Below, in pieces: positions 6,113 through 29,216 of a stretch of 64,000 nucleotides of DNA (the stretch's first letter is position 1; each line of letters opens with the position of its first letter). The stretch is from contig CP114125.1 of the NCBI GenBank assembly GCA_029959195.1, forward strand, positions 1,736,001 through 1,800,000, given 5' to 3'. Origin of the DNA: Dictyophora rubrovolvata. Taxonomy: Eukaryota; Basidiomycota; Agaricomycetes; Phallales; Phallaceae. The notes beneath the pieces are model-generated. The model had not been told where the DNA came from, searched no databases, and worked only from the letters and a program-made list of their open reading frames with translations. The translations under genes and the position numbers were made by a program.

Positions 6113-9100
6113 TTATGTACATGATGTTTTACATTTTGCCCAACTCGTACCATGTACAAATTTGTCAAACTCGAGTTTTACAAACTTTTCTCTGACCATG
6201 TCTACACTGTACGACATAGATGGACACCACAAATAACTTCGCATCCTTGGCGGGACCCAGAATAAGAGCTCACCATGGGGACCTAACATCCAGCCTTCGT
6301 CCATTTCTGTATAGGGCGAAAAGATTGCTTTATTCCACGCCTTCAGTGTGTAGTCCAATGTCTCCGCGTTTTCATAGCTTGAGCGGTAATCCTCAATTGA
6401 CCTGGTCAACTATTATTAATGCAAAAAATTTCACCAAAACAGGCAACATACTGTCTAATAGTTTCCGCAGTATTGATATTGGCGGGCAACATGCCAAACT
6501 GCGATTTGTTCAAATGATCATCAAATAGAGACTCCATAATTTTAAGCACGCGAAAATCCCAAGTTTTCCCGGAACCGTCCTCCACAGTCGAAAATAAGCT
6601 GTCTCCGTGTAAAGCAATATTTCCGCCATCATGTACATTGTAGAGCGGAAGAGGTCGAATAATTAGCTTTCCAGTTCCAATATCCCATATATCAACATGT
6701 TTCAAGTGTGAGTTACCATGTGATATGCACAGCAGTGTGGAGTCGGTGGAAAAGTCAAAGTTACTGACGTCATTTCTACTTCTGTAATTATCATTGATGT
6801 AATCGTTGAACGAGGGCGCGTCGATCATTATGTCCTTCTCTAGATCCCAGAGTTTCACTTCATTACCTTTCTCTCTAGGTACCCAGGCCGCGTACTTTCT
6901 ATTCGGGGATAATCGTGACCCCCTACTTATTGTATCAAAGCATATACTTGCACCAGTTGATGTGTCCAAGATCTTGAGACTGCGGTATAACATGCATACA
7001 ATATGTTTGTTGCCGGAGGGGAAGACAATGGGCTTGACAGTGGGGAAATCAACAGTCTCAATAAAAGGACCTCTCAATAAATTTTTTGATACCAAGTCCC
7101 GTTCTTCAATGAGTAGTTGTTCGTCTGACGTCGTGTATGCGACGACGAATGTGGTACCCGTCGAGGAAAAAGCAAGAGCATCCACCCTCAGCAAGTTGCG
7201 AACCGGCAGTCTGCTGATGCCGGTCAATTGACGCTTATGAACATCCCATACTTTGATTTTGATGTCCCTACCCAATTCGCCGACAATAAGACGATCACCA
7301 GTAGGAGAAAATGCAAGCGGGGTAGTGTAGTGAACTGTTTTGTCTAAGGTAATCTCTTTTCTTCCATCAATATCCCAAAGACGGAGCCCACGAGGCTTCA
7401 CCGTGTAAGCTATGGACCAATGATCATCTTCAGGAGAAACTGCGACTATGCGGGAATTATGGATTTTGTGATGATTAAGCGTTTTGGTAGTATCGAGGAT
7501 TCGAATACTATGACCACGATACTTGCTGACATACATATGCAAGAGAACATAGTGACCCTTTAGCCAGACAGCCAAAACTTTCTCTGCTTTATATTCTTCA
7601 TCATCATTATCGTCGCAAAGAGGGGTTTGGAAAAGAGAATCCCATGTTAGCATGCGCATTGTATTATCAGACATACTCAACGCTATATATTTGCCATCAG
7701 GGGATACGACGATTGCGAGGGGGAAGTCGCTGTGCCCAAAACTTGGAGGCTCGATCAGGCGTGGAAGCGAAATCCTGATAATTAAATTTCCTGTTGACAT
7801 GTCATGGATGTGGAGATTAGCGGAGATGTCAATGTTAATGAAGTATCTTTCATCCGGAGTGAATGTAGCATCATGGCATGAACGACGTCGATCAACCTCA
7901 ACAAGGCTAACTGCTTTGTTTGTCCGTAAGTCCCAAATCTCTACATCCGAGCTGAGATTGTGCTTTTTCTCCAAAACGATGTAATTGTTCGCAAGTGCCA
8001 GTAGCTTCCAGGCTGACGGCTCGGGGACCGACGTTTCAGGTGAAAAAAATGTCTGTGTGCGTGTATTCCATAGGCGCGACACCTTACCACGAAGGGCAAA
8101 CCAATTTCCATTCGGAGAAAACGACATGTTGCAGTGCTCCTTGCAACTGTCGTCAATAGTGTGTGTTGAATCGGAGCTGTTGTCATGTAGAAGTGTCGCG
8201 CCATTCATAAGTGCGAAGGCGATGTACCGTCCATCCGAGGAAATAGTGGAACCACGACATTCTCCTTGAGTGATTTTCTCGTAAGACTCTACGATTGTGT
8301 CATTTGTCTCTACATCCCAAGTTTCAATGAGCCCATCATTATAACAACGATAAACCAGTCCCCCATCGGGCGAAAACACCACACTGTCGATACCAATTTT
8401 GTCTTCCTGAGACACCAATTGGTCATTAATTTCTCCAGTAATATAATTCCACATCCAAAATTCACCATCGTGAAAGCCAGTTGCGATCTGTGTATCTTTG
8501 GGTGAAAAAGCGAGTGTGTGTGGCACCGCCGAAAAACTTGGTTTCACCATGGTATATTCGATTTGGGGGCATATTAGAGGTTGACCAACTTCCATGTGAA
8601 GAATTTGAGAATAACGATGGATGAATTGCTTGTATATAAATGAATCCTTCGAGGTGAATGGAAGCGCAGAGAGATATAGATGTGGAGTGCTCTGCTGCAT
8701 CATATCTCCAAATTCGCGTCCAAAACAATATGCATCGGCCGCCTGATAAGCTAACCCATTGTCCTTATCCTGAAAATATCTGATCAGAAAAAGAAATTAG
8801 TCTCAGTAAAAGAACACCGACTTTGACCTTATCCTCCAGGATCCGCATCCCGACGCAACCATGTTCCACTTCTCCCAATAGACTGAGAGCTTCGAAGAAA
8901 TATAGTAATTTCTGCTCCATCAGTTCATGGATCTCTTTTAAGAGTTCCGAATCATCAAGACGTGAATGTTTAAAGTGATAGGCCCAGTGACAACACGCAT
9001 ATGACAACTGCTCTGGAATAGCCTTTTCCACAAGTGAATCAAAATTTTCTACATCATTATCGTATCGGTGGGATGTGTCCAGATCGCACATGTTGAACCG

Positions 9101-11542
9101 AAGCATATCATTCATTAGCCGCAGACATGCGTGTGTTACAGGAGCTTGGTTCGACGTATCGATGTAGTATCGGTTCGGAGTCTTGGGTTTTTGTTCGGCA
9201 CTAATGAAAAAATCGAACAACGAGGTATGTAGTGGTCGAATTGTGGTGGTCGAATCATCAACACCGATGAACAGTGAACGAAATGGAGCTAATGCAGCCT
9301 TGACATCAAGATCCTCGTTAAGGGGTTCAAACAGAGCTTGCAAAGTTGTAATTGAAAACGGTTCCCGCGATACTATGAGTGCCCCAATGATTGTTTGGAA
9401 TGTAGTGAAAGAGTCCGCGTCCTGAATACCTTGCTTTTCATCAAGGATTCTATGATACATTTCGAATAGGGAGGCTGGGGCGGCCTTCGAGAGGAGAGTC
9501 TTTAGCCGAACTATGTGGTTATATTCGACGATGTAGTGACATGCGAGATACGCCCATTGAAAGAGACCCTGAGCTTTTTCTGCTAGTTCTGAACGCCAAT
9601 CCACGTGAAACCTCTTGTCCAAAATCTCCGCCACATCCAAAAGCTCGGAAGAAATATATTTTTGGATGTCGTTTAGCGTATCATCCGGATCAATGTCCGC
9701 CATATGTATGCAAAGAACATTAAGCTCCCGATTTTCATATTTCTGTTCGATGTCCGATTCAGGCCGAGAAGTGATTATAAGACGATAGTTCTGTGGAAAC
9801 TCGGAAGTCCGTTCAAAGAGTAAATGCAACAGAGTTCGGCGACTCTCCCTGTCTCCACTTTCATCAAAGGCATCTATGATTATAACCACAGGCTTTGTCG
9901 TGTTTTTCGAAGGTTTGACAATCAGTTCATCGAATTGCGTCGTGGGATCAAGAGATTTCCTGATTTCCGTCTCTCCGATAGGGTGTACGAGATTTTGTAG
10001 CCACAAGGCGTCGTCTGCCAAATTGCGGGAGATGGTGCTAAAAAAGAGATTGCGTCGGTTTTGATCACTCCGGTTAAAGCAAAATATTGTGGTAAGTTTA
10101 TCTGTGCTTCTGAGATTCTCGTAAATGGTGTGGGCAACGGCAGATTTGCCCATTCCGGCTTGTCCGCTCAGGACGAGAACCCGCTGGGTCGTATCCGTAT
10201 TGACCCAGTTCAAAATCTTCTTGATCAACTCCTCACGAGTTCCCGGTAGGCATTTCTTCTCAGTTTGGAATCCCGCATTTGCAGTATATGGCAATTCGGC
10301 AAGAAGGTTGAAATTATCTGATAAGAATAATAGAATACGGATAAATATATGAGGGAAAGAAGCCTTACGAATCAAGTCCAGCATATTGTATACGACAATA
10401 TGTGTTTCTAGGTTGAGAGAACGTTGCATGGCATCAAAAAGTCGACTGAGTGATTTTTGGAACTCTTGGACTTTATTATCGATGATCGGCCCTTTCAAAA
10501 AATTCTTGGCTGGCAATTCTAGCATCGTACAACTCAAACCAAATAGACTGGGAATCAAAGCGCACCGGTACTACTATCGTCATAGTCTTTGACGAAGCGA
10601 ACGCATTCTAAAGTTTGGCGAAACAGCAGTTTCAGGTTCTCGGTTTGAGTGATTGTGAAGACGGGCAATCGGTCCGCATCGATGATGAATTTATAGATGT
10701 CTTTCAAACGTTCACATAATTGATTAATGTTGCTATTCCGAATTAGGTGTGCTTCGATACTCTATAGACTGAGCAAGTAGTTATATAGAATGCCAAAACA
10801 CTCACATCTGGTATAAGTAATAAAACGTTCCAAACTTGCTGAACGTAGGAATTCAACTAGAAGATTTTTTAGAAACCATGTAAATTCGACAACCAGGTAA
10901 TCAATGATGCACAAACCCTAGAAACAGAGCTTATGACATCCTTCACCATTTTAAAATACGTAAAGAACGTAAACCAGGTCTCCCTTTCGTTGAAGCGTAT
11001 GTCTTTTATTTGTTCAATTACCTCATTAAGAGCATCTTGGACGAGAGTGTCCTTGATAGTAAAGCTTAGTTCCAATTCTCCTTCGCTCAGTTGGCATAAT
11101 CCTAAAATGTTTTTTAATAAACAGAGCTAAGTCGAACCCGGCGAAACACACCCGATGATCTTTGCATATCAAAGAGAGAGGAAACGCTAGTTTCATACCT
11201 CCCCGCTCTCTTTTTACGGCCAGCATACCTATTTTTGAGAACCGTGAAAACGATGGTAGACTGAGGAGTAGCATCTCTGTTTTCAAATAGACAATGACCC
11301 TCAGTTGAATAGACAATCTAAGCTAATCCCGTAATCTCACAGATGGATTTGTTCGTCGGAAACTTGATTTTCAAACAGTATTTCTTCCACAAGCTTAGAC
11401 ACCCTGTCGCTTCCAGTTATCTCAGCTCGCAAGGTATAAGTGCAGCCGTTTGGAGGAGTCGGATTCAATAATTTGATATCTGTAAAGCAATTAGAAATCC
11501 GTTTATTCAGCCTCAGACATCGTCACACGTCTCACCAAACAT
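6113..11542 (-). CDS. NACHT-WD40 NLR-type receptor
   Basis: A fungal STAND/NLR protein, a class linked to non-self recognition and regulated cell death. In order: a C2-like N-terminal stretch (exons near 11533-11340, GCTYTLRAEITGSDRVSKLV), a helical linker (ELSFTIKDTLVQDALNEVIE; TENLKLLFRQTLECVRFVKD), a NACHT NTPase with Walker A GQAGMGKSA (about 10140-10170) and Walker B VVIIIDAFDES (about 9870), a helical region to about 8800, then about fifteen degenerate WD40 blades (8703-6406; repeated FSPDG-type and IWD-type ends), enough for two propellers. The last exon carries the family tail GPHGELLFWVPP and HGTSWAKC. Introns are seen at about 6410, 8760-8800, 10320-10370 and further 5'. The 51-bp intron at about 10320-10370 is in frame without a stop, so retention would not break the frame. 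The start used here (ATG 11542) lies one base from a foldback element, so the true N-terminus may be altered or lost. Confidence 0.85.
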
Positions 11543-26753: not shown

Positions 26754-27069
26754 TAGGACATTGTATGTACTTGCGAGAAACATGTTATATGATTTTCTGG
26801 GCGGCAGTGAGGATCATGACAGTGACAGTGACAGGACGGCCTTGCTGCCCTTAATCGGAGTCCAAAGTAATCACTAAGATTTCCCTTCAGGTGGATGGGC
26901 GCCTCCTCCGTTGATGGAAAGTGGTGACATCCGGCGCTTACTCAATGAGGGTTTCGTTCCAACTGGGACCGCTTGGACCAAAACAACCACAACCACCACC
27001 GTCGACAACTCTTAACCGACGCTGTCTAAGCTACTTAGACTTTGGCGACACAAGTCCTCAGAACCTCCT

Positions 27070-29216
27070 ATGATGCCTTCTCGTCTGCGTCCCCCTTCCC
27101 CAGACCCATTTATTATTGCCTTGCAACCGCCACCTGATGAAACACCAGAAGAGAGAGCAATTAGAGAATGTTCGTCGATTTTAGCCTAGATATCATTATC
27201 GAACTGATCAACGGTCTCTTCTTTTTTTGTTGTAACTGCAGCGAGAGAGCAAGAAGCCCTACGTATAAGCAATGCTATCGACGATTCCCTTAAAGCTGAA
27301 CGGGCTGCTGAAAAGCGCAAGAGAGTGACTAGATTATTGTTATTGGGCCAGTCGGAATCAGGTATTACACATCTTATTTTTCAACAGTAGTAATGCTAAT
27401 CTGTTCAGGGAAATCGACCACACTGCGACAATTCCAACTTCATTATACACCCAACGCCTTTCGTACCGAACGATTGTTATGGCGATCCATTGTCCAGTTA
27501 AACGTCGTTCGATCAGTTCTCACCGTCCTAGATACCCTGTCTGAGGCGCAAGCCGAATCGCTACAAGTCTTACAGTCAACCAATGGACAGGGTGACGATC
27601 CTAATGAAGAGCCTCTTCTTTTCAGCGACGATTTTGAAATTCTTAAATCACGCCTTGACCCACTACGAAGGGTGGAAGAAATCCTTATTGCCAAATTGGG
27701 CGATGAGGAAGGCCTTGTAGGAGGCGGTAGTAACGGCGGAAGCCTTCCAAATTCTCCGGGGGGTATACCCCGTCCTAGCATTCAACAGAAGAAACGCAAA
27801 CAGGAGGTGACAGTGCGTAGCACAGCCATGGATAAGTTGCGTGTAAAGCTATTGGGTGGACCCGCGGGCACCCGCCCACAGTCCGAGGGAGACGGTGCTA
27901 ATTGGGACGAGCCGACCGAGGTTATCTATCATTGCAGAGAAGAAATGATGGCATTATGGGAGGACCCGACGGTGCGAGAAGTTTTGCGACGCCGACGGGT
28001 CAGGGTTGAAGAAGGCCCTGGATTGTCAGTTTATTTTTTTTTTCTCTTTTCCCCCGCTTCGGCCTTTAGAGGTTTGACCCTGTTCATTAGTTTCCTCGAT
28101 GATCTTGAACGTGTTACCAGTGCGGGTTACATCCCTTCAGACGGTAAATTATAGTTTTTCTCCGCCTATGGATCCTATTGAAAACAAATTTTATAGATGA
28201 CATTTTACATGCTCGCCTAAAAACTGTTGGCGTTACCGAGTACAGGTTTGATATGGAGGTCTCAGCAGGCCGGGAATCAGGTTCCGAGTGGAGAATATAT
28301 GACGTTGGGGGAAGCCGGAGTCAGGTAACACCAAAATCCAATTTTTTTTTACGATAACACAAGGATACTGATTCAAATCACAGAGGCGTACGTAACTCTC
28401 TCCTGAAATTCGGGAAAAAAAGTTCGTCATATTCATATGTACGCCTTTTTTAGACTCTTGGGTCCCCTTCTTCGATGATGTGGACGCCATTATTTTCCTT
28501 GCACCAATCAGCGCTTTTGATCAGCCGTTAGTGGTAAAGAAAATCCTCCGTTTACTTCCCGTAATTCGAAAACCTGATGCCTCGTGGTTCCCTTTTTTTT
28601 TCAGGAAGATCATTCGGTTAACCGTCTTGAGGACAGCGTCCTACTATGGAAGTCTATTTGTTCAAATAAACTGCTTGCTAATGTCGGTTCTAATTTAATA
28701 ACTTTCACTTGATCTTATTTTCTTATTTTCTCACACGTCTGTCTTTCACTCATTAGGTGGAACTGATTCTTTTCCTAAATAAGTGCGATATCCTAGCGAG
28801 CAAATTGGAAGCCGGCATCCGGTTATCTAAATATGTTCGCTCGTTTGGCGAACGATCTAATGATGTAGAAACCGCCAGTGCTTGTAAGTCTCCCCTTTCT
28901 CTTTCTTTCCTCTGATAGCGTTTTTACACTACCTAGACTTCAAATCCAAATTCCAAGCTATCGAACGAGAGTATTCCCCGGAGCCGCGACGGTTTTACGG
29001 CTATTGCACATCGGTTACGGTATGCCTTACGATCTTTTATACTCCAATTGTCTTAATCCCTTTATCCAGGACCGCGAAACAACAAGGGGCATTCTGCACA
29101 GTGGTAAGTTGTATATAAATGCCTCCTAAAATTTGGGTCATCTTTTTCACGCGTTGCCATGGCCAGTACGGGACATGATTGTCCGAGAGCATCTTCGCAA
29201 ATCTCGCCTTATTTAA
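27070..29216 (+). CDS. Divergent heterotrimeric G-protein alpha subunit
   Basis: A GTP-binding switch of the G-alpha family. Exons thread to MMPSRLRPPSPDPFIIALQP.., then RVTRLLLLGQSESGKSTTLR (G1, about 27330-27430), a long helical-domain insert with Gly/Ser/Pro stretches (GGGSNGGSLPNSPGG), HARLKTVGVTEYRF (G2 with the Arg and Thr kept, about 28210), YDVGGSRSQ (G3, about 28300), LFLNKCDILASKLEAGIRLS (G4, about 28770) and YCTSVTDRETTRG (G5-like). It ends REHLRKSRLI at 29216. Two oddities: the G3 Gln that activates the hydrolytic water (DVGGQ) is Ser, and there is no N-terminal MG for myristoylation, although the start could be further upstream. The large insert and degenerate motifs suit the expanded fungal non-canonical G-alpha group. 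It follows the ABC transporter on the same strand. Confidence 0.88.

Follow-up and report, generated by a model that had tools for sequence, protein, structure and literature searches.

In G-alpha proteins the switch-II glutamine (Gln204 of Gi1, equivalent to Gln61 of Ras) is regarded as indispensable for timing, and its loss is oncogenic in animals. The Rnds (Rnd1, Rnd3) are small, constitutively GTP-bound GTPases of the Rho family without the helical domain of G-alpha. Rnd3 carries Ser81 at the Ras Gln61 position and is GTPase defective (PMC6776491), and the Rnds, in which the equivalent of Ras Gly12 is absent, are GTP-loaded upon synthesis (PMC13236570). The residue corresponding to Ras Gly12 in Gi1 is Gly42 of the P-loop. 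In Gi1 the G42V substitution drastically reduces hydrolysis, with the new side chain blocking Gln204, and all residues other than Gly or Pro at position 12 of Ras are activating; Gi1 G42R, however, retains hydrolysis and is blocked in activation (PMC3285607). Thus the effect of a residue at position 42 is unreadable from sequence alone.

Deviation from the catalytic motifs in nature has been reviewed for Dictyostelium, Naegleria and plant G-alphas; fungi are not named in the relevant section of that review (PMC8584482). In Naegleria fowleri, G-alpha1 has the P-loop residues TAQ, with Ala at the Gly position, and displays slow hydrolysis that none of the RGS domains tested speeds up. Placing this P-loop into G-alpha2 abolishes the RGS response of the latter, while in the reverse swap G-alpha1 hydrolyses GTP faster and still does not respond to RGS (PMC9283941). 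Thus insensitivity to RGS has more than one cause. Among fungi, a genome-wide search in Flammulina filiformis found four G-alphas, all presented as classical in having GXGESGKS, DXXGQ and MGXXXS (PMC9030616). An expansion of G-alpha genes has been described in Polyporaceae, and neither a missing catalytic Gln nor a missing P-loop Gly is mentioned in the extract of that study (PMC8242266).

The window, i.e., the whole stretch of 64,000 nt of Dictyophora rubrovolvata DNA that was analysed, carries a G-alpha gene on the forward strand at positions 27070-29216. A splice-aware protein-to-DNA alignment resolves the gene into 12 exons that encode 490 aa, with a frame that is open to the stop codon at 29214-29216. 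A family profile gives identical exons, except that it starts from the second ATG (27073), one codon downstream. The aligner penalises stop codons, so open frames arise partly by construction and alone prove little. The PF00503 profile matches the protein with 326 bits (cut-off 48.8) from profile position 2 to 333 of 333 and thus over the whole domain, and about 40 residues precede the start of this match.

Exon 1 (27070-27169) begins with the ATG at 27070 and encodes a DPF motif. The first part of the P-loop, LLLLGQSES(G), is in exon 2 (27242-27361); exon 3 (27409-28024) contains the remainder of the P-loop and the helical domain, including a Gly/Ser/Pro-rich insert, and the helical domain ends in exon 4 (28091-28143). 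Exon 5 (28197-28324) encodes switch I, RLKTVG, and the G3 motif, DVGGSRSQ. It is followed by exon 6 (28384-28387), a micro-exon of 4 nt, AGGC, that completes SQ-R-H(-S-W) and is found by both alignment and family profile. Exon 7 (28454-28533) encodes SWVPFFDDVDAIIFLAPISAFDQ, and exons 8 and 11 lie at 28605-28682 and 29070-29103. NKCD is at 28778-28789 in exon 9 (28757-28883), the G5 motif TSVT is in exon 10 (28937-29019), and exon 12 (29167-29216) encodes the C-terminus HLRKSRLI and ends with TAA. A micro-exon of 4 nt within switch II is also present in a second G-alpha gene of this genome, L016 (positions 2104-2107 of its reverse complement). Gene finders may skip an exon of this size and yield truncated or mis-spliced proteins for both genes.

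Other features of the window can be mentioned here. On the same strand, an open frame upstream of the G-alpha gene ends, as read by eye, with TAA at 27013-27015, 54 bases before the G-alpha ATG, and exons farther upstream resemble an ABC-2 transporter in two weak profile matches below the cut-off; a second scan gave no such match. On the reverse strand, at 6409-10570, adjacent frames for an NPHP3_N/NACHT-type NTPase (8768-10570) and WD40 repeats (6409-8796) resemble a fungal NLR-like (STAND) gene. The domain scan of the window covered 9 of its 13 long frames and one shorter frame.

The codons at 28301-28324 are GAC GTT GGG GGA AGC CGG AGT CAG, which translate to DVGGSRSQ and are followed immediately by a GT donor. 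Thus the position of the catalytic Gln is occupied by Ser (AGC, 28313-28315), as had been claimed in the preliminary description, and neither spliced model places a Gln there. The complete switch II of the spliced model is DVGGSRSQRHSW. In the three alignments printed from a phmmer search against solved structures, this Ser lies opposite the Gln of the G-alpha chains. The same three alignments place the P-loop LLLLGQSESGKST opposite LLLLGAGESGKST, with GKAT in one of them, an engineered chain. A Gln hidden by a different splicing was rejected as an explanation: the motif is uninterrupted in exon 5 and the downstream junctions are shared with paralogues.

The P-loop, GQSESGKST, does not conform to the canonical GxGES. 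Its third residue, at the position of Gi1 Gly42, is also Ser (TCG, 27352-27354). Both classic sites at which substitutions cripple hydrolysis are therefore changed in one protein. The preliminary description had listed G1, switch I and NKCD as kept; this holds for Arg178 (CGC, 28214-28216) and Thr181 of switch I and for NKxD, but G1 is incomplete.

All 11 contigs of the genome (28.2 Mb) were searched with the G-alpha profile, which gave at least 31 exon-level matches. Grouped by position, these represent at least 11 G-alpha genes: the window gene and L009 to L018. Each was read as a spliced model, and several models are without the first residues. For L017 the splicing was assigned by eye; two of its introns require GC donors, one of them (gctagt) unusual. 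The model of L013 stops 12 residues before a stop codon, to which its frame stays open. Two further PF00503 matches are outside the 11 on account of their translations: judged by eye, L019 resembles an Arf-type small GTPase and L020 an ABC-transporter ATPase. A tblastn search for relatives outside the genome found none in prokaryote and virus contig sets, which carry no information on fungi. The genome also has at least two RGS-domain loci, one G-gamma match and a Ric-8 locus with five matches. Thus parts of the ordinary G-protein pathway coexist with the G-alphas described below. A cluster of 17 STE3-type receptor matches, which by position amount to about five genes (G000:C11:864346-874372 and 1012125-1013087), resembles a basidiomycete pheromone-receptor mating locus.

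Three of the 11 genes, L009, L011 and L012, retain both Gly42 and Gln204 and are referred to as canonical. The other eight, the window gene among them, have lost both and are referred to as divergent. Position 42 is Ser in the window gene, L010, L014, L015, L016 and L018 and Ala in L013 and L017. Position 204 is Ser in the window gene, L010, L016 and L018, Ala in L013, L014 and L015, and Arg in L017. All 11 proteins keep K46, S47, R178, T181, D200, G203, N269, K270 and D272; the GTP-binding motifs, i.e., the G1 Lys-Ser, the switch-I Thr, DxxG and NKxD, are therefore present in every divergent protein. Residue 43 is Glu or Asp in ten proteins and Gly in L014, whose P-loop, GPSGSGKST, is without Glu43 as well as Gly42. 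Glu43 normally interacts with the switch-I Arg (PMC9283941).

The changes extend beyond these two positions. R208, W211 and F215 of switch II are kept in all 11 proteins, and in all eight divergent proteins K210 is replaced by Ser or Ala, H213 by Pro or Ser and C214 by Phe or Tyr. K210 and C214 are G-beta contacts. E207 is Gln in seven divergent proteins and Leu in L017; Gln at this position is absent from the canonical three. Gln at position 41 is similarly distributed, being found in seven of eight divergent proteins (L014 has Pro) and in no canonical one. At residue 182 the canonical proteins have Thr or Ser, and the divergent ones Val, Met or Leu. A plant G-alpha study lists the switch-I Thr (T192 of SmGPA) among the likely RGS-contact residues (PMC11061236), and its match to residue 182 is by the numbering of the present analysis. 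In the 94 alignment columns that are identical in the canonical three and filled in all 11 proteins, 36 residues are kept in all eight divergent proteins and 17 in none, the latter including G42, Q204, E207, K210, H213 and C214.

The N-terminus and the helical domain differ as well. The window protein begins with MMPSRLR and is without the MG start for myristoylation; with the first in-frame ATG taken, no divergent protein has an MG start. The canonical proteins start with MGGC, MGVC and, in L009, probably MGCA, the last in an upstream frame that is not joined to the model. A DP(L/F) motif N-terminal of the first helix is present in all eight divergent proteins, and because it is common to them the lack of MG is probably not the result of a missing exon. 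An undetected upstream exon carrying MG thus appears unlikely. The absence of an MG start had been noted in the preliminary description. The large Gly/Ser/Pro insert that it had also reported lies within the helical domain and characterises the whole divergent group: the segment from T48 to R178 measures 187-286 residues in the eight divergent proteins (225 in the window gene) vs 128-148 in the canonical three.

In a maximum-likelihood tree of the 11 genes (359 columns), a branch with 100/100 support separates the eight divergent genes from the canonical three; the alignment retained both trait columns, 42 and 204, and six of the eight inner branches are poorly supported. The last intron is common to all eight divergent genes and absent from the three canonical ones, and another is found in seven of the eight divergent genes. 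A phase-0 intron follows SRSQ in six of the eight, and the 4-nt exon with the phase-1 intron after it recurs in L016. Shared intron positions are not imposed by the aligner. Since the eight genes share ancestry, these are not eight independent losses, and the joint loss of residues 42 and 204 probably has one old origin. For Ser at position 42 the window gene, L010 and L014 have TCN codons, and L015, L016 and L018 have AGC; at position 204 the window gene and L010 use AGC, and L016 and L018 use TCN. The presence of both kinds of Ser codon shows that these residues kept changing at the DNA level, and Gly and Gln, respectively, are never found among the eight. The pattern weakly suggests that a small residue is tolerated or favoured at the two sites.

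We consider it somewhat more probable than not that the eight divergent genes are a family of paralogues encoding G-alphas with impaired GTPase activity and no sensitivity to RGS, which would work in the manner of Rnds; the GTP-binding residues are complete in all eight, and the window gene is apparently an intact member. From the residues described above we infer slow hydrolysis, GTP loading, insensitivity to RGS and altered binding of G-beta-gamma. A divergent G-alpha would load GTP, hardly hydrolyse it and probably stay active for long periods. RGS proteins would be unable to speed its switch-off, because the Gln that they hold is absent and the RGS-contact residue 182 is changed. Binding to G-beta-gamma would probably be weak or different, since the N-terminal lipid signal has been lost, as have the charged residues and the Cys of switch II. 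Control of activity would then lie with synthesis, turnover, localisation or partners, in the manner of the Rnd GTPases. An altered or RGS-independent cycle was already the suggestion of the preliminary description and is still the best reading; its account by a single residue is incomplete, as G42 and residues 182, 207, 210, 213 and 214 are also lost.

An alternative is that hydrolysis is kept by another route, with Gln41, Gln207 or a dedicated partner supplying the catalytic side chain. There is a precedent in RapGAP, which supplies the catalytic side chain to Rap, a protein without Gln61. The distribution of the two Gln residues, each in seven of the eight divergent proteins and in none of the canonical ones, is consistent with such a role, as is the presence of Arg178 in all eight. 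However neither Gln is universal, with Pro at 41 in L014 and Leu at 207 in L017, and the loss of G42 in all divergent proteins also argues against a rescue of hydrolysis. In addition, the expected geometry has residue 41 facing away from the gamma phosphate and residue 207 about one helical turn further on. We consider this alternative unlikely.

Judged slightly less likely again is that the family has left the GTP switch, being either locked with GDP, like Gi1 G42R, or largely independent of nucleotide, as the plant XLGs reportedly are. A protein substituted at G42 can be trapped in the inactive state (PMC3285607), and in XLGs, which are atypical G-alphas, extensions are accompanied by degraded motifs (PMC8584482). 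Contrary to the XLGs, K46, S47, T181, D200, N269, K270 and D272 are intact in all eight divergent proteins, and it is the integrity of these binding residues that makes a GDP-locked or nucleotide-independent role less likely. The analogy with G42R is also limited by size, as the Ser and Ala seen at position 42 are far smaller than Arg. Finally, it is very improbable that the genes are paralogues in decay or products of faulty gene models, as might be suspected from the short exons that split the switch-II region (4 nt in the window gene and L016, 9 nt in L018), the GC donors of L017, the early end of the L013 model and the stop-penalising aligner, because the last intron is common to all eight divergent genes and to no canonical one, the GTP-binding residues are unchanged in all eight, another intron is shared by seven, and the L013 frame runs on for 12 residues to its stop.

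If the reading as GTPase-impaired, RGS-insensitive G-alphas is correct, a natural G-alpha family without Gln204 and the P-loop Gly would show that signalling is possible without the hydrolysis timer, and the question of why some fungi multiply their G-alpha genes would become testable. The automated label "G-alpha" can also mask proteins that are perhaps outside the textbook cycle. The expansion of G-alpha genes in Polyporaceae is already in print, and in Laccaria bicolor Martin et al. (2008) reportedly noted "new classes of GTPase alpha genes". Sequences of the DVGGSR type are also present in the genomes of other Agaricomycetes. The classical set of Flammulina filiformis speaks against a divergent family common to all mushrooms. 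In the open-licence literature, as far as the extracts extend, no report was found of fungal G-alphas without both residues, and the paired loss of 42 and 204 in fungi is apparently undescribed there.

Compared with the fungal G-alphas of groups I-III (PF00503), the window gene is alike in its whole-length match, the P-loop Lys-Ser, the switch-I Arg and Thr, and NKxD, and it differs in the absence of MG, Gly42, Gln204 and K210/H213/C214 and in the large helical insert. The plant XLGs are similar in being atypical paralogues beside canonical G-alphas and in having extra sequence; however their nucleotide-binding motifs are described as very weakly conserved (PMC8584482), whereas those of the divergent eight are intact, and the long N-terminal domain of XLGs contrasts with about 40 residues in the window protein. 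Naegleria fowleri G-alpha1 provides a natural replacement of the P-loop Gly by Ala, but in a protist and as part of a three-residue P-loop change, and a loss of the switch-II Gln is not described in the extract of that work (PMC9283941). Rnd1 and Rnd3 share with the window gene a residue other than Gln at the Ras 61 position together with one other than Gly at the Ras 12 position. The paired loss is all that they have in common with the divergent G-alphas, which makes the relation an analogy and not one of membership. It is thus tentatively, and with less confidence than for the impaired GTPase itself, that eight of the 11 G-alphas of this fungus may be seen as a heterotrimeric counterpart of the Rnds, long-lived in the GTP-bound form and free of RGS, and perhaps also of G-beta-gamma and of membrane anchoring.
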